DNA from: Gelidibacter japonicus
GTDB lineage: Bacteria; Bacteroidota; Bacteroidia; Flavobacteriales; Flavobacteriaceae
Assembly (NCBI RefSeq): GCF_010725055.1
Contig: NZ_BJKB01000005.1
Location: 186,001 to 250,000 of the forward strand
Reading direction: 5' to 3'
Length of the DNA stretch: 64,000 bases
Shown: piece by piece, positions 14,769-58,508 of the stretch
Layout: each line of letters starts with the position of its first letter
How positions within the stretch are numbered: position 1 is the first letter of the stretch
Made by a program: the position numbers and the translations under genes
The notes under the pieces: model-generated
Told to the model about the DNA's origin: nothing
Database searches by the model: none
What the model saw: only the letters and a program-made list of their open reading frames with translations

Positions 14769-14812
14769 ATGACAATTATCATAGTTTAAATGATAATCAT
14801 TTCCGACCTTTG
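14769..14812 (+). promoter_or_regulatory. Fnr-type palindrome and -7 box upstream of ccoI
   Basis: The palindrome ATGACAATTATCAT at 14769-14782 is centred 33 bp upstream of GACCTTTG (14805-14812), which matches TAnnTTTG except for the first base. Transcription would start around 14816, leaving a leader of about 9 nt before the ATG at 14825. A second, shorter palindrome ATGATAATCAT (14790-14800) lies between them. Confidence 0.75.
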
Positions 14813-14824
14813 CAAAAGGTATAA

Positions 14825-17212
14825 ATGAGCATAATTATGGAATCTTCAACTTGTTTCCACTGTGGAGATCTTTCTGATTCTTCCACAATTTTTTTTGACG
14901 ACAAATCATTCTGTTGCCAAGGTTGCAAGACGGTTTATGAAATCTTCTCTGAAAATGATCTCACCTGTTACTATGACCTGCAATCTGCTCCCGGGACCAC
15001 GCCAAAAGACATTCAGGGAAAATATGACTTTCTTTCCCAACAGAACATTATTGACAAATTGGTGGAGTTTGATGACGGCAAGTCACAAATAGCCACACTT
15101 TATATTCCACAAATCCATTGTAGTTCCTGCATTTGGATTCTTGAAAATCTAAATAAGCTCAATAGTCATATTTCATCTTCGCAGGTTGACTTTGGCAAGA
15201 AAACGGTGCGACTTCAATTCAACTCTCAAAATTACAGCTTAAAAGAAGCGGTCATTTTGCTAAGTTCCATCGGATATGAGCCTTATATTAGCCTGGAGGA
15301 TTTCTCAACAGGAAAAAGCCAGGTGAACCGCTCCTTAATATACAAACTAGGGATCGCAGGATTTGCATTTGGCAATGTCATGTTTCTATCATTTCCTGAG
15401 TATTTTGAAGTGAAAGAGTTTTGGCTCGACCAATACAAGCCTTTTTTTAGATGGTTGATGTTTGCCTTTTCCCTTCCAGTGGTTTTTTATTCTTCACAAG
15501 ATTATTATATCTCTGCCTACAAAGGCTTGCGCGCCAAAGTTTTGAATATTGACGTCCCCATTGCACTGGGAATCATCGTGCTTTTTTTACGAAGCACTTG
15601 GGATATTGTTTTTGATTTGGGCTCAGGCTTTTTTGATAGTTTAACCGGCTTGTTGTTTTTCTTATTGCTGGGTAAATTCTTTCAACAAAAAACCTATTCG
15701 TTCCTTTCTTTTGAACGCGACTATAAATCCTATTTCCCAATTGCCATTACCAAGATTTCTAAAAATGGTGAGGAACATCCCATTCAAGTGTATGATATCA
15801 AAAAGGGCGACCGATTATTGATTAGAAACGAAGAATTGATACCGGTAGATGGTGTACTCATCAAAGGAAAAGCAAAAATAGATTATAGTTTCGTTACAGG
15901 AGAATCGGACCCTGTGAGCAAGGTCTCGGGAGACAAACTTTTTGCCGGTGGCAAACAGGCTTCCGGAAGTATAGAAATGGAAGCTTTAAAAAGTGTTGAA
16001 CAGAGTTATTTGACACAGTTGTGGGGCAATGATGTGTTCAATAAGGACAAAGCCGACGGATTTACAACCTTGACCAACTTAATCAGTAAACGATTTACCA
16101 TTGTCGTTCTGAGCATCGCCTTTATTTCTACGGCATTCTGGCTGTTTGTTGATGCCAGCAAAGCCTTGAATGTGTTTACCTCTGTTTTGATTATTGCCTG
16201 TCCTTGTGCCATAGCCTTGGCAGCACCATTTACACTTGGCAATATACTTCGCATTTTTGGCAAGCATAAATTCTACCTAAAAAATGCCACCGTTATTGAA
16301 CAGTTGGCAGCGATAGACACCATCATATTTGATAAAACCGGTACTATTACTTCCAATAAGCAAAGCACGGCGACTTATGAAGGAGATGCACTTTCTTCGT
16401 CCGAAGAGGTATTATTAAAAAACACGTTAAGAGGGTCCAACCATCCCTTGAGCCGAACACTTTACGACCTATTGGAAGAAAATGACATTATCATGCTCGA
16501 TCAATTTGAAGAGCATGTGGGACAAGGTATTCAAGGGGTACACCAACAGGACAGTATCAAAATTGGGTCTGCAAATTTTGTTGGAAAGACCAACGATACT
16601 GCGGTTCTTAACACTTCAGTCCATATCAGTACCAACGACGCCTATAAAGGAAAGTTCACCTTTTACAATAGCTACCGAAAAGGATTGTCGCAATTGTTCA
16701 ACAAACTCAAAAAAAATTACGATTTAGCAATACTCTCCGGTGACAACGAGGGCGAAATGGAAAATTTAAAAAAACTGCTTCCAGCAAGGACCAAATTGCT
16801 TTTCAACCAAAAACCAGATGATAAATTAGAATACATTAAGCACCATCAGAGTGAAGGGGCCAAAGTCTTAATGATTGGCGATGGACTGAATGATTCCGGC
16901 GCGCTGGCCCAAAGCAATGTAGGCATTGCGATTTCAGAAAATGTCAATGTCTTCTCTCCTGCATGTGATGCTATTTTGGATGCAGTCAAATTCAATAATC
17001 TTAGCGATTTTATTAACTTGTCAAAATCGGCCATCAAAATCGTAAAGTGGAGCTTTGTGTTGTCATTTATGTACAACGTGGTAGGGGTCTCTTTTGCCGT
17101 AACCGGACGACTAGAACCTGTTGTTGCAGCCATATTGATGCCTTTAAGTTCCATAAGTATCGTGGTTTATACGACAATCGCTACAAATGTAACGGCGCGG
17201 AGATTAAAATAA
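14825..17212 (+). CDS. ccoI: copper-translocating P-type ATPase for cbb3 oxidase assembly (CcoI/FixI-like)
   Basis: 795 residues. The N-terminal Cys-rich segment (CFHCGDLSD, CCQGCKTVYEIF) precedes a heavy-metal-associated domain with IHCSSCIWILENL. Membrane helices follow, then the actuator motif VTGESDPVS, the ion-binding motif IACPCAIALA, the phosphorylation site FDKTGTITS, the nucleotide-binding HPLSR and the hinge GDGLNDSGAL. This order is that of the CcoI/FixI group that exports copper to the periplasm for heme-copper oxidase maturation. It lies directly upstream of the cco genes and shares their palindromic promoter element, supporting that role over general copper efflux. Confidence 0.93.
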   Translation: MSIIMESSTCFHCGDLSDSSTIFFDDKSFCCQGCKTVYEIFSENDLTCYYDLQSAPGTTPKDIQGKYDFLSQQNIIDKLVEFDDGKSQIATLYIPQIHCSSCIWILENLNKLNSHISSSQVDFGKKTVRLQFNSQNYSLKEAVILLSSIGYEPYISLEDFSTGKSQVNRSLIYKLGIAGFAFGNVMFLSFPEYFEVKEFWLDQYKPFFRWLMFAFSLPVVFYSSQDYYISAYKGLRAKVLNIDVPIALGIIVLFLRSTWDIVFDLGSGFFDSLTGLLFFLLLGKFFQQKTYSFLSFERDYKSYFPIAITKISKNGEEHPIQVYDIKKGDRLLIRNEELIPVDGVLIKGKAKIDYSFVTGESDPVSKVSGDKLFAGGKQASGSIEMEALKSVEQSYLTQLWGNDVFNKDKADGFTTLTNLISKRFTIVVLSIAFISTAFWLFVDASKALNVFTSVLIIACPCAIALAAPFTLGNILRIFGKHKFYLKNATVIEQLAAIDTIIFDKTGTITSNKQSTATYEGDALSSSEEVLLKNTLRGSNHPLSRTLYDLLEENDIIMLDQFEEHVGQGIQGVHQQDSIKIGSANFVGKTNDTAVLNTSVHISTNDAYKGKFTFYNSYRKGLSQLFNKLKKNYDLAILSGDNEGEMENLKKLLPARTKLLFNQKPDDKLEYIKHHQSEGAKVLMIGDGLNDSGALAQSNVGIAISENVNVFSPACDAILDAVKFNNLSDFINLSKSAIKIVKWSFVLSFMYNVVGVSFAVTGRLEPVVAAILMPLSSISIVVYTTIATNVTARRLK

Positions 17213-17569
17213 ATAACAACACAGGAATCCATTTTCTTGTCTATGAATAAAAACTTTAGGTCTTAAATGATTAAACAAAAAAGTCCACCTACATAATAGG
17301 GAAGTACACAAAAAAGTAGTTTTACGCCCGGCAGGTTAAGCTTTGGTCTATCTCAATTCCGATGTCAATCGTTACAATCACCAAAACCTTATGCACTTGG
17401 CCTTTAATTTTCGGATGTTATCAATAAACTGTGTGAATTAACAAGGTGATAAAAATAGAAAGTTTATAAAAATATTCCGATATTCGTATTTCAAATCATT
17501 AAAACATGATAATTATCATAAAATAACAAAATGGTCAAATGTATTTTTGAACCATAACTTCTATAAGGT
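17213..17569. other. intergenic region between ccoI and ccoS
   Basis: 357 bp with no credible reading frame. The right end holds the Fnr-type promoter of the cco operon (described separately). No terminator hairpin for ccoI was found, so some read-through into cco is possible. Confidence 0.7.
17506..17549 (+). promoter_or_regulatory. Fnr-type palindrome and -7 box of the cco operon
   Basis: ATGATAATTATCAT (17506-17519) is a perfect 14-bp palindrome. TATTTTTG (17542-17549) is a perfect TAnnTTTG -7 box centred exactly 33 bp downstream, so the palindrome sits near -41 from a start around 17553. The leader to ccoS (17570) would be about 17 nt. This is the clearest example of the set. Confidence 0.85.
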
Positions 17570-17755
17570 ATGAGCGTTATATATTTATTACTGAGTCTTA
17601 GTATTTTAGTAGCCGTCATCTTTTTTGTTGCCTTCATTTTCGCCGTAAAAAACGGACAGTATGATGATAGCTACACACCATCCGTACGTATGCTTTTTGA
17701 AGATGAATTAGTAAAAGAAAAACCAAAAACATTAAAAAAATCAAAAACTAACTAA
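17570..17755 (+). CDS. ccoS: cbb3-type oxidase assembly protein CcoS
   Basis: 61 residues: one N-terminal transmembrane helix (IYLLLSLSILVAVIFFVAFIF) and a short charged tail containing the typical GQYDDSYTPSVRMLFED. CcoS is needed for inserting heme and copper cofactors into the cbb3 catalytic subunit. It is first in the cco operon, 19 bp before the fused ccoNO gene, which is the usual Bacteroidetes order. Confidence 0.93.
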   Translation: MSVIYLLLSLSILVAVIFFVAFIFAVKNGQYDDSYTPSVRMLFEDELVKEKPKTLKKSKTN

Positions 17756-17774: not shown

Positions 17775-19958
17775 ATGGAAATGCAACAATTCTATTACGA
17801 TAACAAAGTCGTTAAGAAATTCCTCTATGCCACCTTGTTCTGGGGTCTTATTGGTATGATCGTCGGACTCTTTTTAGCTTTTCTATTCCTTTTTCCAAAT
17901 CTGACCGATGGCATTTCATGGCTGAGTTTTGGACGGTTAAGACCATTACATACCAATGCGGTTATTTTCGCCTTTGTAGGTAATGCTATTTTTGCTGGGG
18001 TGTATTACTCATCACAAAGGTTACTAAAAGCCAGGATGTTCAGTGATGCCTTAAGCAATATTAACTTTTGGGGCTGGCAATTAATCATTGCTGCAGCGGC
18101 AATTACTTTGCCTTTGGGTTTTTCCACCTCAAAAGAATACGCAGAATTGGAATGGCCAATTGATATTGCCATTGCTTTTGTATGGGTTGTTTTTGGCTGG
18201 AACCTTATTGGGACGATACTAAAAAGAAGACAACGCCATTTGTATGTAGCCATTTGGTTCTATATTGCCACTTTTGTTACAGTTGCCGTACTCCATATAT
18301 TCAATAGCTTGGAACTGCCTGTCAGTGCTTTCAAAAGTTACTCTGTTTATGCCGGTGTTCAGGATGCCTTGGTACAGTGGTGGTATGGGCATAACGCTGT
18401 AGCATTTTTCTTGACCACACCGTTTTTGGGACTTATGTACTATTTCGTTCCAAAGGCAGCCAACAGGCCTGTTTATTCCTATAGACTTTCCATAGTCCAC
18501 TTCTGGTCCCTGATATTTATTTATATCTGGGCAGGACCGCATCACTTATTATATACAGCGTTACCTGAATGGGCTCAGAACTTAGGTGTGGCGTTCTCAG
18601 TCATGTTGTTAATGCCTTCTTGGGGAGGGATGATCAACGGACTCTTAACATTGCGAGGAGCCTGGGACAAGGTAAGAACGGATCCTGTTCTTAAATTCAT
18701 GGTTGTTGCCATTACCGGATATGGGATGGCCACCTTTGAAGGTCCGATGTTATCACTCAAAAACGTAAATGCCATTGCTCATTATACAGATTGGATTATT
18801 GCCCATGTCCACGTAGGTGCTTTGGCCTGGAATGGATTCTTAGCCTTTGGAATGGTCTATTGGCTGATCCCTCGCTTGACCAAATCGAAACTATATTCCA
18901 CTGGAATGGCGAATCTTCATTTCTGGATCGGGACCCTAGGAATCATCATGTATGCTTTGCCATTGTACGTAGCCGGGTTTACCCAGGCGAGTATGTGGAA
19001 ACAATTTAATCCTGATGGTAGTTTGGTTTACGGTAACTTCCTGGAAACCGTTACTGAAATTATGCCAATGTATTGGATGCGTGCCATTGGGGGTACTTTA
19101 TACCTGACCGGAATGATCGTCATGATCTATAATATTGTTCAAACGGTTAGAAAAGGTAGTGCTGTTACGGACGAGTTGGCAGAAGCTCCTGCACTACAAC
19201 GTGTCTCCAAGGGAATGGTTGCTGGTGAACATTGGCACAGCTGGTTAGAGCGTAGACCAATACAGTTGACAATTGGTGCGACAATAGCGATTTTAATTGG
19301 TGGTATTGTGCAAATCATACCAACCATTATGATAGATTCCAACATCCCAACCATTACCAGTGTGAAGCCTTACACTCCACTCGAACTTGAAGGAAGGGAT
19401 CTATATATCCGCGAAGGTTGCGTTGGATGTCACTCTCAAATGATTAGGCCATTTAGGGACGAAGTTGAACGCTATGGCGAATTCTCAAAAGCTGGCGAAT
19501 ATGTCTATGACCATCCGTTCTTATGGGGAAGTAAACGTACCGGACCTGACTTACACAGAATTGGTGGCAAATACTCTGACAGTTGGCACTTCAATCATAT
19601 GTATGACCCACAGAGTACCTCCTCAGGATCCATCATGCCTGGTTATAAATGGCTGATTACTGATAAATTGGACAAATCCGTCACTGAGAGAAAGATGAGG
19701 ACGATGATGGCCTTGGGAGTGCCATATACTGACGAAGATGTAGCCAATGCACAACAAAGCATGACGGAGCAGGGAACACAGATTGAGCAAAACCTTTATG
19801 GTGATCCAGCGTTTGCAGAGGCTTACGAAAGAGATAAAGAAAATAGCGGTCCTGATTTTGTTGAAATGCGCGATCGGGAAATTGTGGCAATTATCGCCTA
19901 TTTACAACGTCTCGGCACGGATATTAAAGTCAAAGATTTAGAAACAACACAAAACTAG
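17775..19958 (+). CDS. ccoN: cbb3-type cytochrome c oxidase, fused subunits I and II (CcoN-CcoO)
   Basis: 727 residues. Residues about 1-490 are CcoN, a 12-helix heme-copper subunit with the conserved histidines in RPLHTNAVIFAF, WWYGHNAVAFFLTT, the Cu-B region GPHHLLYTALPEW and TDWIIAHVHVGALAWNG. After a further helix the C-terminal part is CcoO, with a single c-type heme site CVGCH at residues 549-553 and the conserved RPFRDEVERYGEFSKAGEY and GSKRTGPDL. The enzyme reduces O2 at low oxygen tension and pumps protons. Subunits I and II are separate genes in proteobacteria; the fusion is usual in Bacteroidetes. Confidence 0.96.
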   Translation: MEMQQFYYDNKVVKKFLYATLFWGLIGMIVGLFLAFLFLFPNLTDGISWLSFGRLRPLHTNAVIFAFVGNAIFAGVYYSSQRLLKARMFSDALSNINFWGWQLIIAAAAITLPLGFSTSKEYAELEWPIDIAIAFVWVVFGWNLIGTILKRRQRHLYVAIWFYIATFVTVAVLHIFNSLELPVSAFKSYSVYAGVQDALVQWWYGHNAVAFFLTTPFLGLMYYFVPKAANRPVYSYRLSIVHFWSLIFIYIWAGPHHLLYTALPEWAQNLGVAFSVMLLMPSWGGMINGLLTLRGAWDKVRTDPVLKFMVVAITGYGMATFEGPMLSLKNVNAIAHYTDWIIAHVHVGALAWNGFLAFGMVYWLIPRLTKSKLYSTGMANLHFWIGTLGIIMYALPLYVAGFTQASMWKQFNPDGSLVYGNFLETVTEIMPMYWMRAIGGTLYLTGMIVMIYNIVQTVRKGSAVTDELAEAPALQRVSKGMVAGEHWHSWLERRPIQLTIGATIAILIGGIVQIIPTIMIDSNIPTITSVKPYTPLELEGRDLYIREGCVGCHSQMIRPFRDEVERYGEFSKAGEYVYDHPFLWGSKRTGPDLHRIGGKYSDSWHFNHMYDPQSTSSGSIMPGYKWLITDKLDKSVTERKMRTMMALGVPYTDEDVANAQQSMTEQGTQIEQNLYGDPAFAEAYERDKENSGPDFVEMRDREIVAIIAYLQRLGTDIKVKDLETTQN

Positions 19959-19963: not shown

Positions 19964-20149
19964 ATGCTGAAATATATAAAAAACCATATGGACAGTATTT
20001 CAGGTATTGAAATATATCCAATGATCTCCTTACTTATATTTTTCATTTTTTTCGTAGCACTTTTTTGGTGGGTCATTACGGCCAAAAAAGATTATATCGA
20101 TAGAATGAGCAACATACCTTTAGACAACGAAAACGAAATACAATTATGA
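19964..20149 (+). CDS. ccoQ: small cbb3 oxidase subunit, CcoQ-like
   Basis: 61 residues with one membrane helix (YPMISLLIFFIFFVALFWWV) followed by the charged segment TAKKDYIDRMSNIPLDNE. Size, topology and position between ccoNO and ccoP match CcoQ/FixQ, which stabilises the cbb3 complex. Its stop overlaps the ccoP start (ATGA), implying translational coupling. Confidence 0.87.
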   Translation: MLKYIKNHMDSISGIEIYPMISLLIFFIFFVALFWWVITAKKDYIDRMSNIPLDNENEIQL

Positions 20150-21024
20150 GAAATTTAATTCCAGCATACGTTAGGGTGCCCCTATTATTCTTTATCATTT
20201 GGGGTATTATAGAATTGTTTGTGGGAACACCGCACGAACCAGCATTTATGAACAATCCAATGGTTTTATTGTTCTTGTTGTTAGTGTTGCTTCTCATTTT
20301 AGGTATTGAAGCTATTATTGCCGCTCTCGAGAATGTGATGTTTCAAAGTTTGGACGAAGCTGCGAAAGCCCGATATTTAACTACCAAAACATCAACTCCG
20401 AAAATTGTGGAATGGGTCAAAAAAACCTATAAAAAGATGTTAGGTTCCAAACCAATTGAAAAAGAAGGAGAAATTATTCTTGACCACGACTATGATGGTA
20501 TCAGAGAATTAGACAATGATCTTCCTCCATGGTGGCGTTATGGTTTTTACGCTTCAATTGTATTCGCAGCAATCTATCTCTTACGTTATCATGTCTTTGA
20601 CGGTCCAAACCAATATGACGAGTTACAAACTACTCTGGAAATCGCTAAAACAGAATTGGAAGAGTACAAAAAGACAGCCAAAGATTTGGTCGATTTTGAA
20701 TCTGTAACGGTTTTAACCGATGCGGCAGATTTAGCAAACGGAAAAATTGTTTACGACGCTTATTGCGTGGCATGCCATATGCCTGATGGTGGTGGTGGAA
20801 TTGGCCCTAACCTGACGGATGAATACTGGATTCTGGGCGGTGGCATCAAGAATATTTTCCACACCGTAAGTGAAGGTGGACGTAGTGGAAAAGGAATGGT
20901 ACCATGGAAATCGACATTAACACCAATTGAAATGGCACAGGTATCAAGTTACATCCTGACATTCCAAGGGACAACCCCTGCAAACCCTAAAGAGCCAGAA
21001 GGAGATCTCTGGGTCGATGAATAG
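20146..21024 (+). CDS. ccoP: cbb3-type cytochrome c oxidase subunit III (CcoP), single-heme form
   Basis: 292 residues. Two hydrophobic helices lie at the N-terminus and a third at about residue 130 (WWRYGFYASIVFAAIYLL), followed by a periplasmic cytochrome c domain. Only one heme-binding motif is present, CVACH at residues 207-211; the axial Met candidate lies in GKGMVPWKS. Proteobacterial CcoP has two hemes, so electron delivery here uses a shorter chain, as seen in other Bacteroidetes. The gene starts within the ccoQ stop codon. Confidence 0.93.
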   Translation: MRNLIPAYVRVPLLFFIIWGIIELFVGTPHEPAFMNNPMVLLFLLLVLLLILGIEAIIAALENVMFQSLDEAAKARYLTTKTSTPKIVEWVKKTYKKMLGSKPIEKEGEIILDHDYDGIRELDNDLPPWWRYGFYASIVFAAIYLLRYHVFDGPNQYDELQTTLEIAKTELEEYKKTAKDLVDFESVTVLTDAADLANGKIVYDAYCVACHMPDGGGGIGPNLTDEYWILGGGIKNIFHTVSEGGRSGKGMVPWKSTLTPIEMAQVSSYILTFQGTTPANPKEPEGDLWVDE

Positions 21025-22634: not shown

Positions 22635-23081
22635 ATGAAAATAAATTGGGGTACAGGTATTGTGTTGGCGTTTATAGGTTTTATAAGCTTTATAATGTAT
22701 TTTGTTATTTCCTTGACCGTCAACAAAAAGTATGAACATGATTTGGTGGTTGAGAACTATTACAGTCAGGAACTGGAGTTTGAAAACGACATGAACAAAC
22801 AAAAAAATGCACAACATCTAAAGGAAGATGTCACATGGAAACGGTCACCTGAAGGTATTCAACTCTCTTTTCCAAAAGATATGGATCCGTCGGAAATTAC
22901 AGGTAAAGTGTTCCTATATAGACCATCTAATAAACAATTAGACTTTGAAGTTGCGATTTCATTGTCTGACCATAATTTGCTCATACCTGACAAACGTTTA
23001 TTAGGTGGTCGTTGGAACCTTAAAGTAGATTGGCAATATAACGGAAATTTGTATCTATACAAAAAAGATATCGTCTATTAA
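22635..23081 (+). CDS. fixH: FixH/CcoH family protein
   Basis: 148 residues: an N-terminal membrane anchor (GTGIVLAFIGFISFIMYFVI) and a periplasmic beta domain with the FixH pattern (LVVENYYSQELEFENDMNKQ, and WNLKVDWQYNGNLYLYKKD at the end). FixH/CcoH helps assemble cbb3 oxidase. It sits between ccoG and the SafE-like gene; its stop codon directly abuts the next ATG. Confidence 0.88.
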   Translation: MKINWGTGIVLAFIGFISFIMYFVISLTVNKKYEHDLVVENYYSQELEFENDMNKQKNAQHLKEDVTWKRSPEGIQLSFPKDMDPSEITGKVFLYRPSNKQLDFEVAISLSDHNLLIPDKRLLGGRWNLKVDWQYNGNLYLYKKDIVY

Positions 23082-23783
23082 ATGCTGTGGTCTGCGGTCA
23101 TACTTGGTCTTCTTGGAAGTTTTCATTGCGTGGGCATGTGCGGACCGATTGCCTTTATGCTTCCGGTGGATCGCCAGAACTCCACCAAAAAAGTATTTCA
23201 GATTTTCACCTATCATTTTGGAAGGATTTTAGCCTATAGTATTATCGGTCTGTTCTTCGGATTGGTTGGAAAAAGCCTTTATATTTTTGGATTGCAACAG
23301 CAACTCTCCATAGGAATCGGTATTTTGATGATTATAGTAGTGCTAATTCCAACCAAAATCTTCAATAAATACAATTTTTCAAAACCCATTTATAAACTGA
23401 TTTCTAAGGTAAAGACAGGTTTAGGACAAGCTTTTAAGAGAAAAACGGCAGACACCTTTCTGATTATTGGATTTCTCAATGGATTTCTGCCTTGTGGTCT
23501 GGTTTATATGGCCGTTTTTGCCTCATTGGCAATGGACGGCGCACTCAAAGGAAGTTTATATATGGCCTTGTTTGGAATGGGCACTATCCCATTAATGACT
23601 TCAGCTATTTACCTTGGTAAATTTCTAAATAGCAAAGTTAAACAACGCATTCAAAAAGCAGTTCCGGTATTCGTGGTCATTATAGGCATATTGTTTATTC
23701 TCAGGGGCATGGGCTTGGGAATTCCATACATCTCCCCTGCTCCAGTTGTTGAAATGGTCCAAGGCAGTATTGATTGTAACTAA
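23082..23783 (+). CDS. sulfite exporter TauE/SafE family membrane protein
   Basis: 233 residues, about six transmembrane helices. Two paired motifs are conserved: GSFHCVGMCGPIAFMLP near the N-terminus and GFLNGFLPCGLVYMAVF in the middle, the MCG/PCG pattern of the SafE/DsbD-like transporters found next to cco genes. The start immediately follows the fixH stop. By position it probably assists oxidase maturation, for example copper or thiol transport; the true substrate is not known. Confidence 0.85.
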   Translation: MLWSAVILGLLGSFHCVGMCGPIAFMLPVDRQNSTKKVFQIFTYHFGRILAYSIIGLFFGLVGKSLYIFGLQQQLSIGIGILMIIVVLIPTKIFNKYNFSKPIYKLISKVKTGLGQAFKRKTADTFLIIGFLNGFLPCGLVYMAVFASLAMDGALKGSLYMALFGMGTIPLMTSAIYLGKFLNSKVKQRIQKAVPVFVVIIGILFILRGMGLGIPYISPAPVVEMVQGSIDCN

Positions 23784-27023: not shown

Positions 27024-29021
27024 TTAATAGATGATATAAGACATATTAATATAAAAGTTTCGACCTTGCCGTGGGATATTATTCCAATCGGCATAGGTTG
27101 AATAATTTGTATCCAAAATATTTTCAATCCCATATTTCAAGACGAATTTATTGGCATTGAGGTTAAATTCATTTCCAAGATTTAAATTTAAAATCGCGTA
27201 GGCAGGTGTTTCGTCCTCGCCATAAAATCCACTGTATCGGGTTTGGTTGCCATTGCCCTGCAACTGTAAGGCGGCGTTGAATTTTGGTTTTGAATAGTTC
27301 ACTTCCGCCAAATACGAAAACGGTTTAATCAATGGTAAATTCTCATTATTGCTACCACTTCCATAATTATAGCCCACGGTACCATTTAGAGAGAATGAAT
27401 TCGAAAATTTATAAGATGAATTCAAATACACGTTAAATATTTTGGCGTGTGAGAGTGCCTCGTACATTTTTACCCCGCTAGCCCCAATAGTCATCGGACT
27501 TAAGCTATTATCTACACTTCCAATAATATAGTCTATGATATAAAAATATGAGGTCTCCAAACCTAAATGAAATCTATTCTCATGATAATTCGCTTTAAAA
27601 TTAGCTTCAATGGCCTTTTCATTATTTAAGGTCGGATTGCCTATATAATCATAGTTATCAAAACTATTGAATAGGAAAAACCCATAGCCCTCACTTACTG
27701 AAGCGGCTCTTTCCCCATAACCTGCTCCAAGAGACACATCATAATGCTCTTTCTTAACCTGGTAATTCGTTGTAAAACTGGTCAACATTCTGTTCTTTGT
27801 AGCTCCAATTTCTGGGTAAAATATTTGAAGACTTTCCAAGCCTGTTTCTTTGGCAATTTCATTTTGATGAAATCCGATTCTCAAGGCTGCTGATAACGAC
27901 ATATCATCCTTAATAGCATACGTATCTTTAGCATAAATACCTGAGTACAAAGTTCGAATATCTGGCCATGTGTACATAAACATTGCAGATTGGTTAGGAT
28001 CATTAGGATACATGGTCATTTCTGCCAAGGAACGGTTGTAGAATCCATTAAGATTGACCTCAAATGCATGTTTATTTATGTTTGTCGTTGCTTTACTATA
28101 AAAGCCATAGGTATCACTCCATCCGGGCATATCCATCCGAATAGGCACATCGGGACGCTTGGAATCGTCCATGACATGTGTGATGGTATTGAAATATAGT
28201 TTAGACTCCAACGACTGAATAAGGGTCGAATCATTCTCAAATTTGTGCGTTACTGACGTTATCAATGCTTCGGCAAGCGAAACGTCCATGGTGAGTGCAG
28301 GATACCCAACATCAGTTGCTTTATCATAAATAACGGCTGCCTCAAATGTATGATGGTCATTTAATTTATAGCCACTTTGCAACGAAATATTATATTTTTG
28401 AAATTGTGAATACAACACTTCCTGACTATTGCCTGCATCATAATTGTCAGACTTACGATAAATTCCATCAGCATGGAGATAAAACTTATTGCCGGAATAC
28501 TCCAGATCCAAACCGCCCGTTTTATAATTCCCGTTGGTTTCGTAGCCCAAATCGATACTTGTTTTTAATCCGGATTGGTGGAACTTGGAATTCGACAATT
28601 GCAAATCAATTCCACCTCCGATAGTATGCCCGTTTTCCGAACCTGATTGGCCAGAGCCAATGCTTACTTTCTGCAAATTGGACACATCAACATACGAAGT
28701 TATTGGGTCCATTTTATCGGTACACGCCCCAAAAATCTGCATCCCATCTATGGTCACACTCAATCGCTCGCTATTCATATTGTTCATGGCGGGTTCCCAA
28801 GCGTAATTGCCGCGCTTGATCATGGTGATTTTACTTGATTTTTCCAAATAATCGTCAATACTCGATAAGGTTTTTTCTTGGCGATAATTACTTAATTTAC
28901 GTCGTCCAACCAAAGTGATTTCATCTAATTTGGTCGTATCATTTTTAGTGTCAGGGGATTCCTGGGCGAAGATAAATCCGCCACAAAACACCCAAATCAC
29001 AACTGTTATGAGCTTTTTCAT
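27024..29021 (-). CDS. TonB-dependent copper receptor (OprC/NosA-like)
   Basis: 665 residues from the ATG at 29021, which gives a proper signal peptide (MKKLITVVIWVFCGGFIFAQ); the longer frame reaching 29225 would overlap the neighbour and has no such signal. The plug domain carries DGMQIFGACTDKMDPITSYV, with Cys100 and Met104 forming the CxxxM copper motif known from OprC; HVM at 282-284 matches the second HxM half. The rest is a beta-barrel ending in an aromatic strand (NMSYIIY). It should import copper across the outer membrane, feeding NosZ, NirK and the cbb3 oxidase. Confidence 0.88.
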   Translation of the reverse strand: MKKLITVVIWVFCGGFIFAQESPDTKNDTTKLDEITLVGRRKLSNYRQEKTLSSIDDYLEKSSKITMIKRGNYAWEPAMNNMNSERLSVTIDGMQIFGACTDKMDPITSYVDVSNLQKVSIGSGQSGSENGHTIGGGIDLQLSNSKFHQSGLKTSIDLGYETNGNYKTGGLDLEYSGNKFYLHADGIYRKSDNYDAGNSQEVLYSQFQKYNISLQSGYKLNDHHTFEAAVIYDKATDVGYPALTMDVSLAEALITSVTHKFENDSTLIQSLESKLYFNTITHVMDDSKRPDVPIRMDMPGWSDTYGFYSKATTNINKHAFEVNLNGFYNRSLAEMTMYPNDPNQSAMFMYTWPDIRTLYSGIYAKDTYAIKDDMSLSAALRIGFHQNEIAKETGLESLQIFYPEIGATKNRMLTSFTTNYQVKKEHYDVSLGAGYGERAASVSEGYGFFLFNSFDNYDYIGNPTLNNEKAIEANFKANYHENRFHLGLETSYFYIIDYIIGSVDNSLSPMTIGASGVKMYEALSHAKIFNVYLNSSYKFSNSFSLNGTVGYNYGSGSNNENLPLIKPFSYLAEVNYSKPKFNAALQLQGNGNQTRYSGFYGEDETPAYAILNLNLGNEFNLNANKFVLKYGIENILDTNYSTYADWNNIPRQGRNFYINMSYIIY

Positions 29022-29053
29022 TGTAGTAGTCTGGTTATAAAAAACTATCCCAT

Positions 29054-29105
29054 CTGTCAGAATGAGAATAATCGATAATTTAGTATCGACTTCCCAACCT
29101 GACAG
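29054..29105 (-). promoter_or_regulatory. nested hairpin in the leader of the copper TonB receptor gene
   Basis: Outer arms CTGTCAG (29054-29060) and CTGACAG (29099-29105) enclose a second stem, TCGATA (29072-29077) with TATCGA (29084-29089). It lies between the lipoprotein stop and the receptor start. It could be an RNA control element or a processing site; no known riboswitch is recognised. Confidence 0.4.
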
Positions 29106-29151
29106 AGCGATATACTTAGATAGCTTTGTAAAAGTTATAAGATAGGTTGGG

Positions 29152-29997
29152 TTAAAATTCAAGCTCCAAATAGAGCGAACTTTTTGGATGTTCCTCAGTG
29201 ACATTTTCACCTTTAAGGACCTCATCTAACGTATTCAACAGCTTAAGATTGAGTACCCAATAGCCCGTCATGGTTAAGGACAGATTTCCCTCATACATTT
29301 TATTTGCCAAATTATAGGTCAAATCGGTATTGTTCGGCGAACTGTGATTTCCCATTCCTGGCATGCGAGGATCCAAGGTTATTTTATAATCTTCAACAAC
29401 AGGGAAAGACATCATCGTTTCCATTTTGAACAAACCCAATTTTAGTTTGTTGATGGCTATCTTAGGAGTTTGAGGTTCTATCATAGCAATAAGATAGCGT
29501 GTATCATCGGCACCCATAAAACTGGTCACGTTTTGATACTCGCTTTGCATCACGATAATATCTGAATCGACAGAATAATTAATGCCATCTATTGTATAAT
29601 CAACTTTTAAAGACCATCCAGATCCATCAAGATTAGCCATTTGATAGATAATGAATCCCTCATACAGCGTTTTCTTGCCCAAAGATTTTAAAATATCCGA
29701 TTTAGGAGATGAGTGTTTCATGGTAGGCATTTGCATCACGGGCATCCAAGATAATGAGGCGTTTTCAACATAGTTATTGGTCCCATTATCCTTGATTCGG
29801 ATACTTATGGCATTATAACCGGTTTCAAATTTACCGGAAGTGTTGAACAATTCTACCGTATGCGTGGCGTTGGTCAGTTCTTGTATTTTTTTAAGATTTT
29901 CAACTTCATTGATAATGGTGTCTGAATCGTCATCAGATGAACATGACACCGTAAATAGAGCGATAAAAAGAATTGGGATGATATATTTTAGTTTCAT
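29152..29997 (-). CDS. Met-rich lipoprotein, probable copper-binding
   Basis: 281 residues with a lipobox (LFTVSCSSDDD, Cys19). A methionine/histidine cluster SWMPVMQMPTMKHSS (Met85, Met88, Met90, Met93, His95) and a later MPGMGNHSS look like periplasmic Cu(I) sites. The beta-rich pattern around them resembles two YtkA/FixH-like domains in tandem. It is encoded between a small Cys-containing membrane protein and a copper TonB receptor, so it probably receives or buffers copper on the periplasmic side. The exact family is uncertain. Confidence 0.7.
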   Translation of the reverse strand: MKLKYIIPILFIALFTVSCSSDDDSDTIINEVENLKKIQELTNATHTVELFNTSGKFETGYNAISIRIKDNGTNNYVENASLSWMPVMQMPTMKHSSPKSDILKSLGKKTLYEGFIIYQMANLDGSGWSLKVDYTIDGINYSVDSDIIVMQSEYQNVTSFMGADDTRYLIAMIEPQTPKIAINKLKLGLFKMETMMSFPVVEDYKITLDPRMPGMGNHSSPNNTDLTYNLANKMYEGNLSLTMTGYWVLNLKLLNTLDEVLKGENVTEEHPKSSLYLELEF

Positions 29998-30095
29998 TTT
30001 TTTGAGTTTTTTGTTTAAAAAAAGTTTTAAAGCTCCCTGCTCGCATGCAAAAACAAGCCAGAAAAGGAAAAAACAAGGTTGTTATACCTAAAAAA

Positions 30096-30491
30096 TCAAC
30101 TAAAGTTTGGTGGTGGCGTATCAATATCCTGATACTGAATAAGAATAGAAGGCGTATAGCCGAAAGATTTACGTTTTGAAACAACAAAAACCTCGCTTTG
30201 AGATTCTGTTACCTGTATTTGGAACAAACAGAATGCATCCAACGACATACGTCTGGTTTCTTGCACTGGTATGTCGGTATTGGAATCTGGTGTGCTTTCC
30301 ACAATCTGTTTGGTCAATTGGCATTTGCCATTACACCCCTGTTGATTATCCTTTTGAATACAAAGATTTTTTGCGATGACTGCCTGATTTGCTAAAAAAT
30401 CGCCAATTATCACCAAGGTATTGATATTATGTGCAAATAATATAAACACCAATACAAGGGCAGTAATTTTATGTGCGATGGTTGCAATCAT
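30096..30491 (-). CDS. small membrane protein with conserved Cys motif, copper-uptake operon
   Basis: 131 residues. An N-terminal hydrophobic segment (ITALVLVFILFAHNINTLVII) is followed by a Cys motif NLCIQKDNQQGCNGKCQLTK (Cys44, Cys53, Cys57) that could bind a soft metal, then a polar tail ending PPPNFS. It is first in the operon with the Met-rich lipoprotein and the copper TonB receptor. The predicted transcription start lies at or next to the ATG, so the mRNA may be leaderless. The function is unknown; a role in copper relay is inferred from context only. Confidence 0.65.
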   Translation of the reverse strand: MIATIAHKITALVLVFILFAHNINTLVIIGDFLANQAVIAKNLCIQKDNQQGCNGKCQLTKQIVESTPDSNTDIPVQETRRMSLDAFCLFQIQVTESQSEVFVVSKRKSFGYTPSILIQYQDIDTPPPNFS

Positions 30492-30495
30492 AGTG

Positions 30496-30539
30496 CAAAT
30501 TTACGTATCATATTTAAAGATATATATGATAATTATCAC
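30496..30539 (-). promoter_or_regulatory. Fnr-type palindrome and -7 box of the copper-uptake operon
   Basis: ATGATAATTATCAC (30526-30539) has one mismatch to the perfect palindrome. The minus-strand -7 box TAAATTTG (30496-30503) is centred exactly 33 bp downstream. The start of transcription would fall at about 30492, next to the start codon at 30491. Confidence 0.8.
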
Positions 30540-30562: not shown

Positions 30563-31345
30563 TTAAAAATCCTTCTTCCTGGCTTTCACGGCGATTCTCA
30601 ACACCGGTAAGACCACCCATAAAGTCAATGCTGAAAACGAAATTATCAATCCAAAATTAGTTCCAAAAAACTGCTTGAAGACGGCCCCGGTATAACCTAA
30701 CAGAGCAGAAATGTCCAACTTAAGCAAAATTAGCGTGCGCGACAAATCGATGGGGTTTAACATGGTTCCAATCAAAGAGAGTTTGTCCAAAGGGTAATCC
30801 GCAAAAAGAATGAGCGACATTAAGAAGATGCCATCATAAATAATGGCCAGAAACAACCACAGCAATATGGCATAGCCAAAACCTTTGATTCTATTCTCAT
30901 TGGACAATGCAATATTAAAGGCCAAAGCTGTAAATATGAGGGTAAGGAACGTACCTGTAATGAGCAGTAATGAAAAATCCCAAATGGCATTGGACATAAA
31001 CAACCCGTAAAAAACAAACGGAATGCCCAGTCCTAAAATCAAGCTCATAGATAGCGAAATGGCCACCCCAAGATACTGACCCAAGAAAATCGATGATCGT
31101 TTTAATGGCTGTGCCAATAACAGCTCTGTAAACTCCTTGGAATTATAATAGTACATAACACCAAAAATAGTTCCTATGAGAGGTACCAAAACAATAATGA
31201 CATTCATTAAGGTGATAACCGCTTTGGAAAGGTCGTTGTTCAAAAATAACAGCACCACGCCAAGTAATAAATAAAACCCAAAATAGACGTAGCTCCATCG
31301 GCTGCGCATTAAATCGTAAAAACTATATTTTAATATTTTAAGCAT
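30563..31345 (-). CDS. nosY: ABC transporter permease NosY
   Basis: 260 residues with six hydrophobic helices, for example YFGFYLLLGVVLLFL and VIIVLVPLIGTIFGVMYYY, and the conserved SKEFTELLLAQPLKRSSIFLGQ. It is the membrane part of the NosFY transporter that, with periplasmic NosD, supplies the CuZ centre of nitrous oxide reductase. Its start overlaps the nosF stop by 8 bp. It ends the nos gene series, 24 bp before the promoter of the copper-uptake unit. Confidence 0.9.
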   Translation of the reverse strand: MLKILKYSFYDLMRSRWSYVYFGFYLLLGVVLLFLNNDLSKAVITLMNVIIVLVPLIGTIFGVMYYYNSKEFTELLLAQPLKRSSIFLGQYLGVAISLSMSLILGLGIPFVFYGLFMSNAIWDFSLLLITGTFLTLIFTALAFNIALSNENRIKGFGYAILLWLFLAIIYDGIFLMSLILFADYPLDKLSLIGTMLNPIDLSRTLILLKLDISALLGYTGAVFKQFFGTNFGLIISFSALTLWVVLPVLRIAVKARKKDF

Positions 31346-32045
31346 GGTTCTCAGTTAATATGGATGCGATAGCATGTTCGAAATCCGGTTGTTTGGTTTT
31401 ATCTTTAAGTTCAGTAATGGTCCCTTTGAAGTAAATTTTACCTTCTAAAAGAAATACGATTTCATCTGAAATTTCTTCAACAAAACTCATTATATGCGAG
31501 GTAATCAAAATGGTTTTTCCTTTGTCTTTTTCTGCCTGGATCAATTTCTTTAATCGCAACAATGAAATAGGATCCAAACCTGAAGTAGGTTCATCCAATA
31601 TGACCAAAGGGCTGTCAAACATAAAGGTCAATACCAGATTCACTTTTTGTTTGGTACCTCCGGAAAGGTTACCTAATTTCTTATCTAAAAAAGGCTCCAA
31701 TTTAAACAGACTGATTAATTCCTGATCCAAGTCAGTCTTGCCTCTTAGATCTTTAATCATAGTAATTAATTCCTTTACCCTTAAGTTGTTGGGGAAATTG
31801 GCGATTTGGGGCAAATAATCAATTTTATGCCTGTAACCTGAGCCACTTTTTATATTCTTACCCAATACAGAGATTTCCCCTTTATTAGGAATGACCATCC
31901 CCAACAAGCACTTGATCAGGGTGGTTTTTCCAGATCCATTTGGACCTAAAACGGCAAATATCCCGCCTTCTCCAATTTCCAAATTGAGGCCACTTAAGAC
32001 CTCATTTTTTCCAAATTTCTTATATAAATCCTTAATTTTTATCAT
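31338..32045 (-). CDS. nosF: ABC transporter ATP-binding protein NosF
   Basis: 235 residues. Walker A GPNGSGKTT, Q-loop YLPQIANFP, signature LSGGTKQKVN and Walker B LVILDEPTSGLDP are all intact, followed by the H-loop TSHIMSF. It energises NosY in the NosDFY system for copper-sulfide centre assembly of NosZ. It overlaps both nosD (14 bp) and nosY (8 bp), which indicates coupled translation. Confidence 0.93.
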   Translation of the reverse strand: MIKIKDLYKKFGKNEVLSGLNLEIGEGGIFAVLGPNGSGKTTLIKCLLGMVIPNKGEISVLGKNIKSGSGYRHKIDYLPQIANFPNNLRVKELITMIKDLRGKTDLDQELISLFKLEPFLDKKLGNLSGGTKQKVNLVLTFMFDSPLVILDEPTSGLDPISLLRLKKLIQAEKDKGKTILITSHIMSFVEEISDEIVFLLEGKIYFKGTITELKDKTKQPDFEHAIASILTENHA

Positions 32046-33432: not shown

Positions 33433-33435
33433 TTT

Positions 33436-34601: not shown

Positions 34602-34644
34602 AATAATTTTAAATTAAATTAACCATTCAGTTAATAGCATTTTT

Positions 34645-41168: not shown

Positions 41169-42614
41169 CTATTTTCTTTTCTCTTTTACTTTCTTGACCA
41201 TTTCCGGGGTTACCACGGTTTTATTATTGCCCCAGCTGTTATAGACATAGGTCATGACGTTGGCAACTTCTTCTTGCGAAATCATTTGCGCGGTCATGAT
41301 ACTGTTGTATTTTTCACCATTTACGGTAATTTCTCCACTTAAACCGAAGAGTACCGCTTCAATAGCTCTGTCAACATCAGCATTTAAATAATCTGATTTT
41401 GCCAATGGAGGGAAAGCATTTGGAATACCTTGTCCCTCGGCTTGGTGACAAGCAATACAGGTTTGACCGTAAATTTGTTTTCCGAATTTCATTTGCTCTT
41501 CAAACGACTTAGCTGGAATATCAGATTCTTTGATCTCACTTGTTGTTGGCATTCTTTGGATTCCTGGACCTTCTGGTAGATAGATATTATCCATAAGCTC
41601 TCCAGAGTATATTTTTTCATTTTCATCACCGGTCACATTCAATAATCCCAAAGCACCTTTGTTGAAGGCTCTAAATATAGAGTGATCAACAAGGACGTAT
41701 GAACCTGGAACATCTACCTTGAATTCAATCATGGCAGCACCTCCGGCAGGAATCAGGGTTGTTTGGACATTTTCGTTGACGAGACTTCCGCCCTCAACTG
41801 TCACTTTATCAAAAATTTCACCGATGATGTGGAAAGATGACACTAATCCAGGACCTCCGTTACCCATAAAAATTCGAACGGTCTCCCCTACTTTTGCGGT
41901 CAATGCGCCATCACCTGTCAAAGCACCAACGCTTCCGTTAAAGACAACATAGTCAGCTTTTTCATCCACAGCTTTCTGCATATCAAAAGGCTGCAAACCA
42001 CGCTCGCCGTTAGCTCCAACAGTATAGAAATCGCCCTGCATGACATAGTATTCTTTATCTACTGGAGGCAAACCACCTTCAGGTTCTATCAGAATTAGTC
42101 CGTACATTCCGTTGGCAATGTGCATCCCCACAGGAGCTGTAGCACAATGATACACATACAATCCAGGAGCTAATACCTTAAAGGAAAATACTTTTTCGTG
42201 CCCTGGAGCCACAAAAGAAGACTCGGCACCCCCACCTGGACCATTGACTGCATGTAGGTCAATATTATGAGGCAATTTATTGTCTGGATGGTTTTGTAAA
42301 TGGAATTCAATTTCATCTCCTACACGTGCTCTGATGAAGCTTCCCGGAACGGAACCTCCAAATGTCCAATAAACATAGCGCACCCCATTTGAAATTTCAC
42401 CTTCAGCTTCAAGAATCTCCATTTTAACAATAAGCTTTTTAGCTTTACGTTTTCCAACTGGTTTTGGTACGTGTGGTGGTGCGGTCAATTCCGCAATCAT
42501 CTCCTGACTCACTGGAATATCTTCAGCGGCCGTATATTTCTCTTTTTTCTCCTTGAAACAGCTAAATAAAAAAACTGTCGCGATTAATACTGTAAATTTA
42601 AGTTTTGATTTCAT
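41169..42614 (-). CDS. nirK: copper nitrite reductase NirK with fused C-terminal cytochrome c
   Basis: 481 residues, lipoprotein signal ([11 protein letters not shown]). Two cupredoxin domains contain the type 1 and type 2 copper ligands: [29 protein letters not shown] and [10 protein letters not shown]. After about residue 375 a cytochrome c domain follows with CIACH at 386-390 and a Met ligand candidate near YNSIMTAQM. It reduces nitrite to NO; the fused cytochrome would pass electrons internally. The promoter carries an Fnr-type palindrome. The length exceeds two-domain NirK because of the fusion. Confidence 0.96.
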
Positions 42615-42640: not shown

Positions 42641-42684
42641 CAAAGTTATCGGTATTCACGTGCACAAAATATGATTTTTGTCAT
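42641..42684 (-). promoter_or_regulatory. Fnr-type palindrome and -7 box of nirK
   Basis: ATGATTTTTGTCAT (42671-42684) has fully matching outer ATGAY/RTCAT arms. The minus-strand -7 box TAACTTTG (42641-42648) is centred exactly 33 bp downstream. The leader to the ATG at 42614 would be about 23 nt. Confidence 0.82.
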
Positions 42685-43733: not shown

Positions 43734-45098
43734 TTAAACGGTCATTGAAAAGAGTTGTGTCTCAGGTTTTTTCCGTTTTAAATGCAAATCAAAGGCCATG
43801 CATACATTTCTAACAAATGGTTTTCCCTTTTCCGTTATAGTCAATTGCCATTCTTTTCGCACTAATAAACCGTCTTGCTCCATTTCATTCAATTCCTCCA
43901 ATACTTTTGGAAGGTCATCAAAGAATAGGTTATTTGGAGTCCAAGAAGTTTGAAAATGACACATTAAATTAAGAATATGTTTCCTGATAATAAGATCTTC
44001 AGAATTTAAAATATGACCTTTTACCACAGGGATTATCTTTTCATCAATCAAATGGTAATAATCTTCAATATTTTTGACATTTTGCGCAAACCCATACCAA
44101 CTATCACTAATTGCCGACACCCCCAAACCAATCATGGCTTTGGTTTTGGAAGCCGTATACCCCATAAAATTACGATGCAGTTGATCTGTAACCATCGACT
44201 GGTATAACGAATCTGAATCTAAGGCAAAATGATCCATTCCAATTTCGTGGTATCCTGCTTCAAATAGTAAAGTCTTGCCCAATTCATATTGCTGTCTTTT
44301 GGCTTCTCCGGAAGGCAGATTGCTTTCATCAAAACCTCGTTGTCCATTTCCTTTTATCCAAGGTACATGGGCATAACTATAAAATGCAATCCTATCAGGT
44401 TTCAATAGTTTTGTTTTGGCTATGGATTCTTTGACGTGCTCCTCAGTTTGAAAAGGCAATCCAAATATAAGATCATGTCCAACGGAGGTATAACCAATCG
44501 CCTTGGCCTGTTCTGTCACCCGTTTAACATTCTCAAACGGCTGAATTCTATGAATGGCCTTTTGCACCGTTTCATTATAATCTTGGACTCCAAAACTGAC
44601 ACGTCTGAATCCGAGATCATAAAACGTTTTCAAATGCTGTTCGGTGGTATTATTAGGATGACCTTCAAAACTAAACTCATAATCATCAGCCAAAGTAGCA
44701 CGCCTTAATATACAATTGATCAGTAAGCTCAGATGTGTTGGAGAAAAAAATGTGGGCGTCCCACCCCCAAAATGCATTTCTTTAATTTTGGGTTTTGATG
44801 GCAGTAAATCGCAGTATAAATCCCATTCTTTTACCAAAGCATTGATGTACGGAATTTCAACGCTATGCTGCTTCGTAATCCGCTTGTGGCAACCACAAAA
44901 TGTACAAAGACTCTCGCAAAATGGCAGATGCACATACAAGCTAATCCCTTCATCTTCATTACTTTCATTAAATGCCTTTAGAAGTGAATCCTTCCAAGAT
45001 TTCATAGAAAACGTGTCACCATCCCAATAAGGAACCGTTGGATAACTCGTATATCTTGGTCCAGCAACATTATATTTATCAATTAAAGACCTTTTCAT
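43734..45098 (-). CDS. hemN: oxygen-independent coproporphyrinogen III oxidase
   Basis: 454 residues. The radical-SAM cluster motif is CESLCTFCGCHKR (CX3CX2CXC) in the N-terminal third, followed by the HemN GGGTPTFFS and EGHPNNTT elements and FGVQDYNETVQKAIHR. The C-terminal HemN domain ends the protein. It makes protoporphyrinogen without O2, supporting heme supply for cbb3 oxidase and cytochromes at low oxygen. An Fnr-type palindrome lies upstream, in line with E. coli-like anaerobic control. Confidence 0.95.
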   Translation of the reverse strand: MKRSLIDKYNVAGPRYTSYPTVPYWDGDTFSMKSWKDSLLKAFNESNEDEGISLYVHLPFCESLCTFCGCHKRITKQHSVEIPYINALVKEWDLYCDLLPSKPKIKEMHFGGGTPTFFSPTHLSLLINCILRRATLADDYEFSFEGHPNNTTEQHLKTFYDLGFRRVSFGVQDYNETVQKAIHRIQPFENVKRVTEQAKAIGYTSVGHDLIFGLPFQTEEHVKESIAKTKLLKPDRIAFYSYAHVPWIKGNGQRGFDESNLPSGEAKRQQYELGKTLLFEAGYHEIGMDHFALDSDSLYQSMVTDQLHRNFMGYTASKTKAMIGLGVSAISDSWYGFAQNVKNIEDYYHLIDEKIIPVVKGHILNSEDLIIRKHILNLMCHFQTSWTPNNLFFDDLPKVLEELNEMEQDGLLVRKEWQLTITEKGKPFVRNVCMAFDLHLKRKKPETQLFSMTV

Positions 45099-45120: not shown

Positions 45121-45164
45121 CAAAAGTATTTTAAAAACGTTATAAAAAATATGATATAAGTCAT
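45121..45164 (-). promoter_or_regulatory. Fnr-type palindrome and -7 box of hemN
   Basis: ATGATATAAGTCAT (45151-45164) has matching ATGAY/RTCAT arms. The minus-strand -7 box TACTTTTG (45121-45128) is centred exactly 33 bp downstream. The leader to the ATG at 45098 would be about 19 nt. Confidence 0.8.
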
Positions 45165-57688: not shown

Positions 57689-57739
57689 TGCAGACAATTA
57701 AAGCACCATAAAGACGCTTTTTATTGATTACTGTAATAG

Positions 57740-58282
57740 TTATTTAGGATCAAAAAACCCACAATAATAGGACTCACCATTAGCATCGGTCAGTTCTGGA
57801 GTTTTGGTTTTGTCAATTGGCTCTTTTACAAGCGTGAAATTGGCTTCAGATCCATTGCCCATTTTTGATTGGAAAGTCATCGTAACTTTGCCATCCACCT
57901 GCTTTGTTTTAATGTTTTCAGGGCTTAAACCAAAGTTGTAAGGAGGACTCATCGGGTTGGTTTGTACAATTTCGAAATCTTTGGAATCACCTTCCCAAGT
58001 CCAGTAATCCTGAGCATAAGGATCAAACAATGGTCGATCGGAATCACCTAAAATAAAATAGAATTTTGAATCGCTGTGAAATTCATAACCAGCAACAAGC
58101 TCCACTATACAAGCATCGCTGGCCGGTCTTCCACCTTCTTTCATAGTGATAAAATCCACATTGGTCAATCGCCATTCGCCTACTAAGCTGACCCTATCGT
58201 TCGCGCCATTATCGTCATCACTTGAACAAGAATAAAACACCAACCCAAAAACAAGGGCACTCAATAAAACTAATTTCTTCAT
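57740..58282 (-). CDS. lipocalin-like lipoprotein
   Basis: 180 residues, lipobox (GLVFYSCSSDDDN). The mature part is beta-rich with a lipocalin-like opening SLVGEWRLTNVDF and a closing strand set. It is upstream of the TonB/DUF4374 pair in the same direction, with 106 bp between, so it may belong to that uptake locus. No ligand is indicated. Confidence 0.75.
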   Translation of the reverse strand: MKKLVLLSALVFGLVFYSCSSDDDNGANDRVSLVGEWRLTNVDFITMKEGGRPASDACIVELVAGYEFHSDSKFYFILGDSDRPLFDPYAQDYWTWEGDSKDFEIVQTNPMSPPYNFGLSPENIKTKQVDGKVTMTFQSKMGNGSEANFTLVKEPIDKTKTPELTDANGESYYCGFFDPK

Positions 58283-58464
58283 AGAATTTGATTTTTTTAA
58301 ATTTCCTGCAAATTTAAGCCTTATTTAGAATAAGACTAAATGGAATTGATAGTATTTCTAAAATATTTAAAACAGAGGTCAGAATCCAAAAATGACAATA
58401 GGTGAAAATAAAATCATAATATCGAAAAATAAACAATCTTCCTCTACTTAGCATGACGTTAAGT

Positions 58465-58508
58465 ATGACAAAAGTCATTTGTTTATTCTATAATATTCTG
58501 TAATTTTA
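58465..58508 (+). promoter_or_regulatory. Fnr-type palindrome and -7 box of cytochrome c peroxidase
   Basis: ATGACAAAAGTCAT (58465-58478) has matching ATGAY/RTCAT arms. TAATTTTA (58501-58508), one base off TAnnTTTG, is centred exactly 33 bp downstream. The leader to the ATG at 58532 would be about 20 nt. Confidence 0.72.

Follow-up and report, generated by a model that had tools for sequence, protein, structure and literature searches.

A palindrome at fixed spacing from the -7 box of low-oxygen genes in Gelidibacter japonicus and its family, and a candidate FNR-like reader

The window considered here, 64,000 nucleotides of the flavobacterium Gelidibacter japonicus (contig NZ_BJKB01000005.1, positions 186,001 to 250,000), carries seven predicted promoters built on one plan. 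Each is a composite of the palindrome ATGAYN4RTCAT, 22 bp and a TAnnTTTG -7 box, which corresponds to a centre-to-centre distance of 33 bp. Judged from the genomes compared, this composite is real, family-wide and of class II geometry. It is likely that all seven places are class II activator promoters read by an FNR-like iron-sulfur (Fe-S) oxygen sensor that counts Cys53 among its cluster ligands. An earlier reading of the letters of the window (hereafter the sequence-only reading) had described a "seven-promoter" regulon. This number proved too small, with 34 places genome-wide (32 distinct) and a geometry shared across the family.

The following mechanism can be proposed. Upon a fall in oxygen, an Fe-S cluster would be held by Cys4, Cys7, Cys106 and Cys53, the last being a ligand shifted from the N-terminal loop to the beta roll. 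A dimer of the protein encoded at 14056-14733 would bind ATGAY-N4-RTCAT centred at -41.5 and help the housekeeping sigma factor to use the TAnnTTTG -7 box. This would turn on the cbb3 oxidase together with its supply of copper, and also heme synthesis and denitrification. Receiver-CRP fusion proteins, encoded beside PAS kinase genes, would read the same type of promoter, for instance at universal stress protein genes. In Flavobacterium psychrophilum, cbb3 oxidase and heme-synthesis genes are raised under oxygen limitation (PMC9723704).

Geometry of the composite

The sequence-only reading had listed seven copies of the palindrome and seven boxes. Six of the palindromes are exact and the one at 30526 carries one mismatch. 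The box has the TAnnTTTG form of Bacteroidota housekeeping promoters exactly in five of the seven places and with one mismatch in the two others, 14805 and 58501. The distance stands as described: 33 bp between centres in 7/7 pairs, on the gene-facing strand. The elements are as follows.

14769 to 14782, + strand: palindrome ATGACAATTATCAT, exact, common to the putative ccoI and the regulator gene
14805 to 14812, + strand: -7 box of ccoI, GACCTTTG, one mismatch
14753 to 14760, - strand: predicted -7 box of the regulator's own gene, TAATTTTG, 8 bp from the 14769 palindrome
17506 to 17519, + strand: palindrome ATGATAATTATCAT, exact
17542 to 17549, + strand: -7 box TATTTTTG, exact
30526 to 30539, - strand: palindrome GTGATAATTATCAT (gene-facing strand), one mismatch
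30496 to 30503, - strand: -7 box TAAATTTG, exact
37979 to 37992, - strand: palindrome ATGATTATTGTCAT (gene strand), exact
37949 to 37956, - strand: -7 box TAAATTTG, exact
42671 to 42684, - strand: palindrome ATGACAAAAATCAT (gene strand), exact
42641 to 42648, - strand: -7 box TAACTTTG, exact
45151 to 45164, - strand: palindrome ATGACTTATATCAT (gene strand), exact
45121 to 45128, - strand: -7 box TACTTTTG, exact
58465 to 58478, + strand: palindrome ATGACAAAAGTCAT, exact
58501 to 58508, + strand: -7 box TAATTTTA, one mismatch

The inner four positions of the palindrome are A or T alone in 7/7 window sites. Shuffled windows held a mean of 0.47 exact palindromes (largest count, 2), and none of 100 reached the six of the window itself. 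Among the genome places listed with zero to two mismatches, none adds a further composite to the window.

The whole-genome scan suggested along with the sequence-only reading was made on the 4.67-Mb draft genome, with a reversed control. Composites with at most one mismatch number 34, against 0 in the control; among them are two pairs of identical copies, on contigs C18 and C20. The stretches concerned (G000:C18:40830-70061 and G000:C20:26243-55474) show two composites at equal distance and in opposite order, a duplicated stretch or assembly redundancy. The palindrome alone was found 59 times, against 11 for the control. When any spacing from 7 to 37 bp was allowed, 8 of the 11 exact matches fell at 22 bp and the control gave 0. 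It could be argued that the spacing is an artefact of base composition, or of counting, in an A/T-rich genome. TAnnTTTG alone is indeed frequent (76 copies in the window, both strands) and, at up to three mismatches, the contrast falls to 454 against 215 in the control. However, 34 against 0 at one mismatch, the gathering of most matches at one spacing out of 31 and the keeping of the spacing in the promoters of relatives make such an origin hardly credible. Chance and composition were thus set aside on the free-spacing and reversed controls.

A free-spacing match is present in 56 of the 60 family genomes, G. japonicus included. The family spacing counts cover the 150 matches listed, from 28 of the 60 genomes (again with G. 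japonicus). Among these matches, 96 lie at 22 bp and 25 of the 28 genomes have at least one there; with G. japonicus excluded, 88/139 of the matches listed lie at 22 bp, and the other 30 spacings average 1.7 each. Lesser excesses are seen among the matches listed at spacings of 23 (7), 34 (6) and 8 bp (5). A spacing of 34 bp would put the site centre near -53.5.

Class II activators bind at -41.5. In F. psychrophilum, the TAnnTTTG box is placed at -12 to -5 (PMC9723704). Calculated with these coordinates and the distance of 33 bp, the box centre would fall at -8.5 and the palindrome centre at -41.5, in line with the placement near -41 made earlier. The upstream region shows a T-rich stretch rather than a fixed -33 element; TTG occurs within -34 to -23 in 9/30 places of G. 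japonicus and 3/24 of the family, composite places alone being counted. The T-rich stretch is compatible with activator dependence.

The regulator and its own promoter

As claimed, an FNR-family protein is encoded next to ccoI: the 14056-14733 product contains cNMP_binding and Crp helix-turn-helix domains (Pfam E-values 6.1e-18 and 1.6e-15). Its identity is 95% to Gelidibacter gilvus, 69-94% to five more flavobacterial records and 25% to a Clostridium protein. This regulator probably works like FNR. In an alignment referred to E. coli FNR (K-12 record), with 35 proteins read at each FNR position, Cys4, Cys7 and Cys106 align with C20, C23 and C122 (Cys in 35/35), C29 is replaced by N, S or T in 35/35, and Cys53 falls at A70. 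The Fnr type assigned by the sequence-only reading therefore stands for the C20, C23 and C122 equivalents; C29 is missing, and an invariant Cys53 is present. All four of C4, C7, C53 and C106 are Cys in 36/36 close relatives (window protein included).

In FNR, the recognition helix contacts DNA through E209, S212 and R213, a base being read by each residue. The helix found here, T-E-S-A-I-R against V-E-T-I-S-R in FNR, keeps Glu and Arg and has Ile at the Ser place. The same Ile is present in the 35 readable helices of close relatives, and distant proteins have Ile, Phe, Thr or Ser. The non-T outer base of the site agrees with this loss of Ser. Because neither the classical ligand set (C20, C23, C29, C122) nor the classical helix (E209-x-x-S212-R213) is found, the protein is not a classical FNR but rather a variant; the NCBIfam Fnr model gives 64.3 bits against a cut-off of 228. 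E. coli FNR is thus alike in its cNMP-binding fold and Crp helix-turn-helix, its aligned C20, C23, C122 and helix Glu and Arg, and the -41.5 centre. It differs in C29, in A70 and S212 (Cys53 and Ile here) and in its sites, the outer base here being A, or G or C, not T, next to a Bacteroidota TAnnTTTG box. A cAMP-CRP was also considered and rejected: the place of CRP R180, the role of which is described in PMC1274295, is Thr (alignment by eye).

The cysteines were counted in 76 proteins, including E. coli FNR and forty more distant ones. CxxC, C53 and C106 occur together in 59. In ten, one of which is E. coli FNR, CxxC and C106 are present but C53 is not; each of the ten has at least three N-terminal Cys, and one has His at position 53. 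The last seven lack CxxC along with C53 and C106. Six orthologues, from order-level relatives (family f2), lack all four cysteines. Since every CxxC/C106 protein without C53 among those counted has at least three N-terminal Cys, and these six orthologues lack all four cysteines, relocation of a cluster ligand is plausible. The strands bearing C53 and C106 are presumably adjacent in the usual order of a jelly roll. Bacillus subtilis Fnr, in which three Cys and one Asp act as ligands and the cysteines are C-terminal, is likewise an FNR relative with an altered fourth ligand. It differs in that the CxxC is N-terminal here and the candidate ligand is Cys53. A tree built without the N-terminus sets apart 9/10 canonical-type proteins and gathers the six cysteine-free f2 proteins in one supported branch beside the proteins of the family, within the C53 group. 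The fusions also fall within this group, with weak support; the branches of E. coli FNR, L200 and the fusions are long.

The regulator gene faces away from ccoI. Its predicted box TAATTTTG, on the strand opposite to ccoI, ends 19 nt ahead of its start codon. Both facing boxes of the gap are kept in 6/6 relatives (L054-L059): a TAnTTTTG box at spacing 8 for the regulator gene in all six and, for ccoI at spacing 22, GACCTTTG in four, CACCTTTG in one and AACCTTTG in one. Because the 14769 palindrome would be centred at about -27.5 with respect to the regulator's own -7 box, we infer that this palindrome may serve both ccoI activation and self-repression of the regulator gene. In Gelidibacter mesophilus DSM 14095 (L057, 10001-10672), the fnr-like gene has no one continuous frame, though both boxes are kept; this is a broken gene or a sequence error.

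Other readers and competing explanations

The phylum sample comprised 296 genomes, 30 of them in the family. These 30 hold 444 composites against 26 for the control, the lowest count being 4. Outside the family, the 33 genomes with a regulator match at E <=1e-35 hold 186 against 13 and the remaining 233 hold 201 against 69; the two groups differ with a p of 2e-12, kinship ignored. One distant genome, G328 (family f46), has 30 composites against 0, and a C53-type protein is encoded there. The genes after eight of its loci, inspected by eye, look non-respiratory.

Several points weigh against an FNR-like Fe-S sensor as the reader of all these promoters. The 233 genomes without an orthologue-level match are still enriched over the control. 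The group of 33 is impure, as it includes six cysteine-free f2 proteins and a genome (G158) whose best match is of canonical type (L188), and a genome with a C53 protein, G204, narrowly missed the cut at 2.4e-35. In the f2 relatives (6/6 sampled), the four cysteines are absent and composites still number 1-13 per genome, against 0-1 for the control. Cluster sensing is therefore dispensable for the geometry. C53 and extra N-terminal Cys are imperfectly exclusive, since 14 of the 59 C53 proteins also hold three or four of the latter. The AlphaFold2 model made with the window protein and five close relatives is poor, with a mean pLDDT (predicted local distance difference test score) of 56, and puts C53 and C106 both in strands. 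In the window, the ccoI and 58465 promoters have imperfect boxes. Finally, an orthologue is missing from three family genomes, G112, G189 and G291 (best matches 2.5e-26, 3.5e-18 and 6.5e-19), and these keep 7, 7 and 8 composites, against 0 for the control. It follows from these three genomes that the FNR-like regulator is probably not the only reader of the composites.

Receiver-CRP fusions are candidates for this role. G. japonicus encodes two, with helices GIATETLIR and GTATETAIR against GTATESAIR in the regulator; the Cys set is absent from both. Each adjoins a PAS histidine kinase gene: the fusions match Response_reg (E 1.8e-29 and 1.3e-31) and their neighbours have PAS, HisKA and HATPase_c domains. 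The FixL-FixJ-FixK2 cascade (PAS histidine kinase, receiver, CRP-type activator) uses the same three module types, arranged differently: here the receiver and the CRP module are joined in one protein adjoining the kinase gene.

This raises the possibility that the fusions, phosphorylated by the PAS kinases, are the main readers, the FNR-like protein being minor or local. Their helices and kinase neighbours fit such a role, and each of G112, G189 and G291 has one full-length fusion (E 5e-99, 1e-89 and 3e-92 to the C10 fusion) alongside its share of the 22 composites. Other CRP-family proteins over the cut-off in these three genomes have differing helices, one of which, in G112 (LRVETVIR), keeps Glu and Arg. 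The composites of G112 precede ccoS/ccoN-, nos-cytochrome-, hemN- and stress-protein-like genes (named by eye). Likewise, G147, with a fusion, a canonical-type paralogue and no C53 protein, has 10 composites against 2, and twenty genomes from outside the family, which fall short of the orthologue cut and have a match listed in an open frame of 348-374 amino acids, together have 63 against 10. The 348-374-residue proteins retrieved from eight of these twenty are fusions in 8/8; G204 is one of the twenty and has the C53 protein as well, and additional FNR-family proteins occur in several of them. However, the window sites are A/T-only in their inner four positions, whereas TGAYC halves occur in 9 of the 12 sites of the fusion regions and in 3 of the 22 elsewhere (grouped post hoc, the 12 including one C3 stress-protein promoter remote from the fusions and the 22 two duplicates). 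Moreover, the orthologue and the ccoI leader are divergently oriented in 6/6 relatives, and composites are more numerous in the 33 orthologue-bearing genomes than in the twenty. Fusions as main readers are thus unlikely. A DNR/NnrR-type nitric-oxide sensor, in place of an oxygen sensor, would account for nir and nos genes, which such sensors target in pseudomonads (PMC1274295). That cco, ccoI and hemN stand under the same box, next to a regulator with a conserved four-cysteine set, makes it very improbable. Fe-S FNR proteins can react with nitric oxide too, and the FNR-like regulator may be modulated by it.

For the FNR-like reading, a wider formulation can be given, for and against which we see the odds as evenly balanced. 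It would see in these proteins an FNR subfamily proper to Bacteroidota, with Cys53 as the moved fourth ligand and VTGAY-N4-RTCAT at -41.5. The fusions, and the cysteine-free version of a sister family, would plug other signals into the same address. HcpR2 of Bacteroides, Porphyromonas and others is also a CRP/FNR-family protein of Bacteroidota with palindromic sites, unlike the present one in its consensus, GTAACnnnnGTTAC, and in that most regulons comprise hcp alone (PMC1274295).

Downstream genes and significance

The genes of the window are the following.

14056 to 14733, - strand: FNR-like regulator (cNMP_binding and HTH_Crp_2; Cys4, Cys7, Cys53, Cys106), from Pfam and alignments
14825 to 17212, + strand: heavy-metal P-type ATPase (TIGR01525, 328.6 bits, under the cut-off of 346.25), putatively named ccoI from its position
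17570 to 17755, + strand: open reading frame (ORF) for a small protein of 61 amino acids, which we take to be CcoS-like
17775 to 19958, + strand: fused CcoN/CcoO, cbb3 oxidase subunits I/II (NF011053, over cut-off)
20146 to 21024, + strand: CcoP (FixP_N, cytochrome c), by domain search
22635 to 23783, + strand: FixH gene and DsbD_2 gene (presumably CcoH-like), by domain search
27024 to 30491, - strand: three genes by profile searches, for 131 amino acids, 281 amino acids and a TonB-dependent copper receptor relative
30563 to 37867, - strand: nos genes by domain searches, for cytochrome c, fasciclin, NosZ (Sec type), a 204-residue protein, NosL, NosD, an ABC ATPase and a 260-residue protein
41169 to 42614, - strand: copper nitrite reductase NirK (TIGR02376, over cut-off)
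43734 to 45098, - strand: HemN, oxygen-independent coproporphyrinogen III oxidase (TIGR00538, over cut-off)
58532 to 59551, + strand: di-heme enzyme of the MauG/MbnH group (best scores, under curated cut-offs)

The low-oxygen gene set claimed by the sequence-only reading (cco, copper, nos, nirK, hemN) stands as predicted from these matches. The product encoded after 58465, called a cytochrome c peroxidase, scores best with di-heme models of the MbnH/MauG type, under their cut-offs. The start of ccoI may be 14837, as L056 lacks an ATG at the first of the two positions. In the copper unit, the 131-residue protein matched no family in the profile searches, the 281-residue protein has a weak YtkA match slightly under the cut-off, and the receptor relative (E 7.1e-38) is under the NCBIfam cut-off. 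Since its ATG lies 4 nt after the -7 box (30491-30503), a leaderless mRNA is predicted for this unit. The nos genes would form one operon, and NirK has a weak cytochrome match close to its C terminus.

Genome-wide, 30 of the 32 distinct places were examined. An ORF of at least 50 amino acids begins within 450 bp of 28, the remaining two being at a contig end; the first start codon lies 17-29 nt past the box in 15/30, and 4/30 fall within a long frame on one strand (all figures without control). Beyond the window, the genes that follow the composites are not all respiratory, as judged from their products. These include universal stress proteins, an ATP-synthase beta-type subunit, phosphotransacetylase, NadA, a PPDK-type protein, MlaE, YceI, a pyridine nucleotide-disulphide oxidoreductase and a PAS histidine kinase; the Pfam scan gave no match for three downstream proteins (L023, L030, L044). 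One region of about 60 kb (G000:C10:112001-184577, L151-L154) holds many VTGACC-type composites; a PAS kinase and a receiver-CRP fusion are encoded in it, and so are an ATP-synthase subunit, stress proteins and a PPDK-type protein. Elsewhere (L156, G000:C8:136001-146000), a CRP-family gene with helix LRVETVIR (C8:140761-141303) overlaps or faces a composite that precedes a 96-residue ORF and a globin-like gene (named by eye).

In PMC8510549, a Bacteroides MalR matrix is applied to a Flavobacteriales genome; the strings 'ATGA' and 'TTGA' are absent from its main text. No low-oxygen promoter code in Flavobacteriaceae was found described in the open-licence literature searched, subscription journals lying mostly outside the search. 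With a rigid, checkable code of this kind, low-oxygen regulons could be read from the genomes of the family, the regulon of the Sec-type nitrous oxide reductase found here being one of them. The cysteine pattern would allow one to test directly the idea that an Fe-S sensor can shift a ligand and still work, and the fusions suggest a route by which a second signal may be joined to the same promoters.

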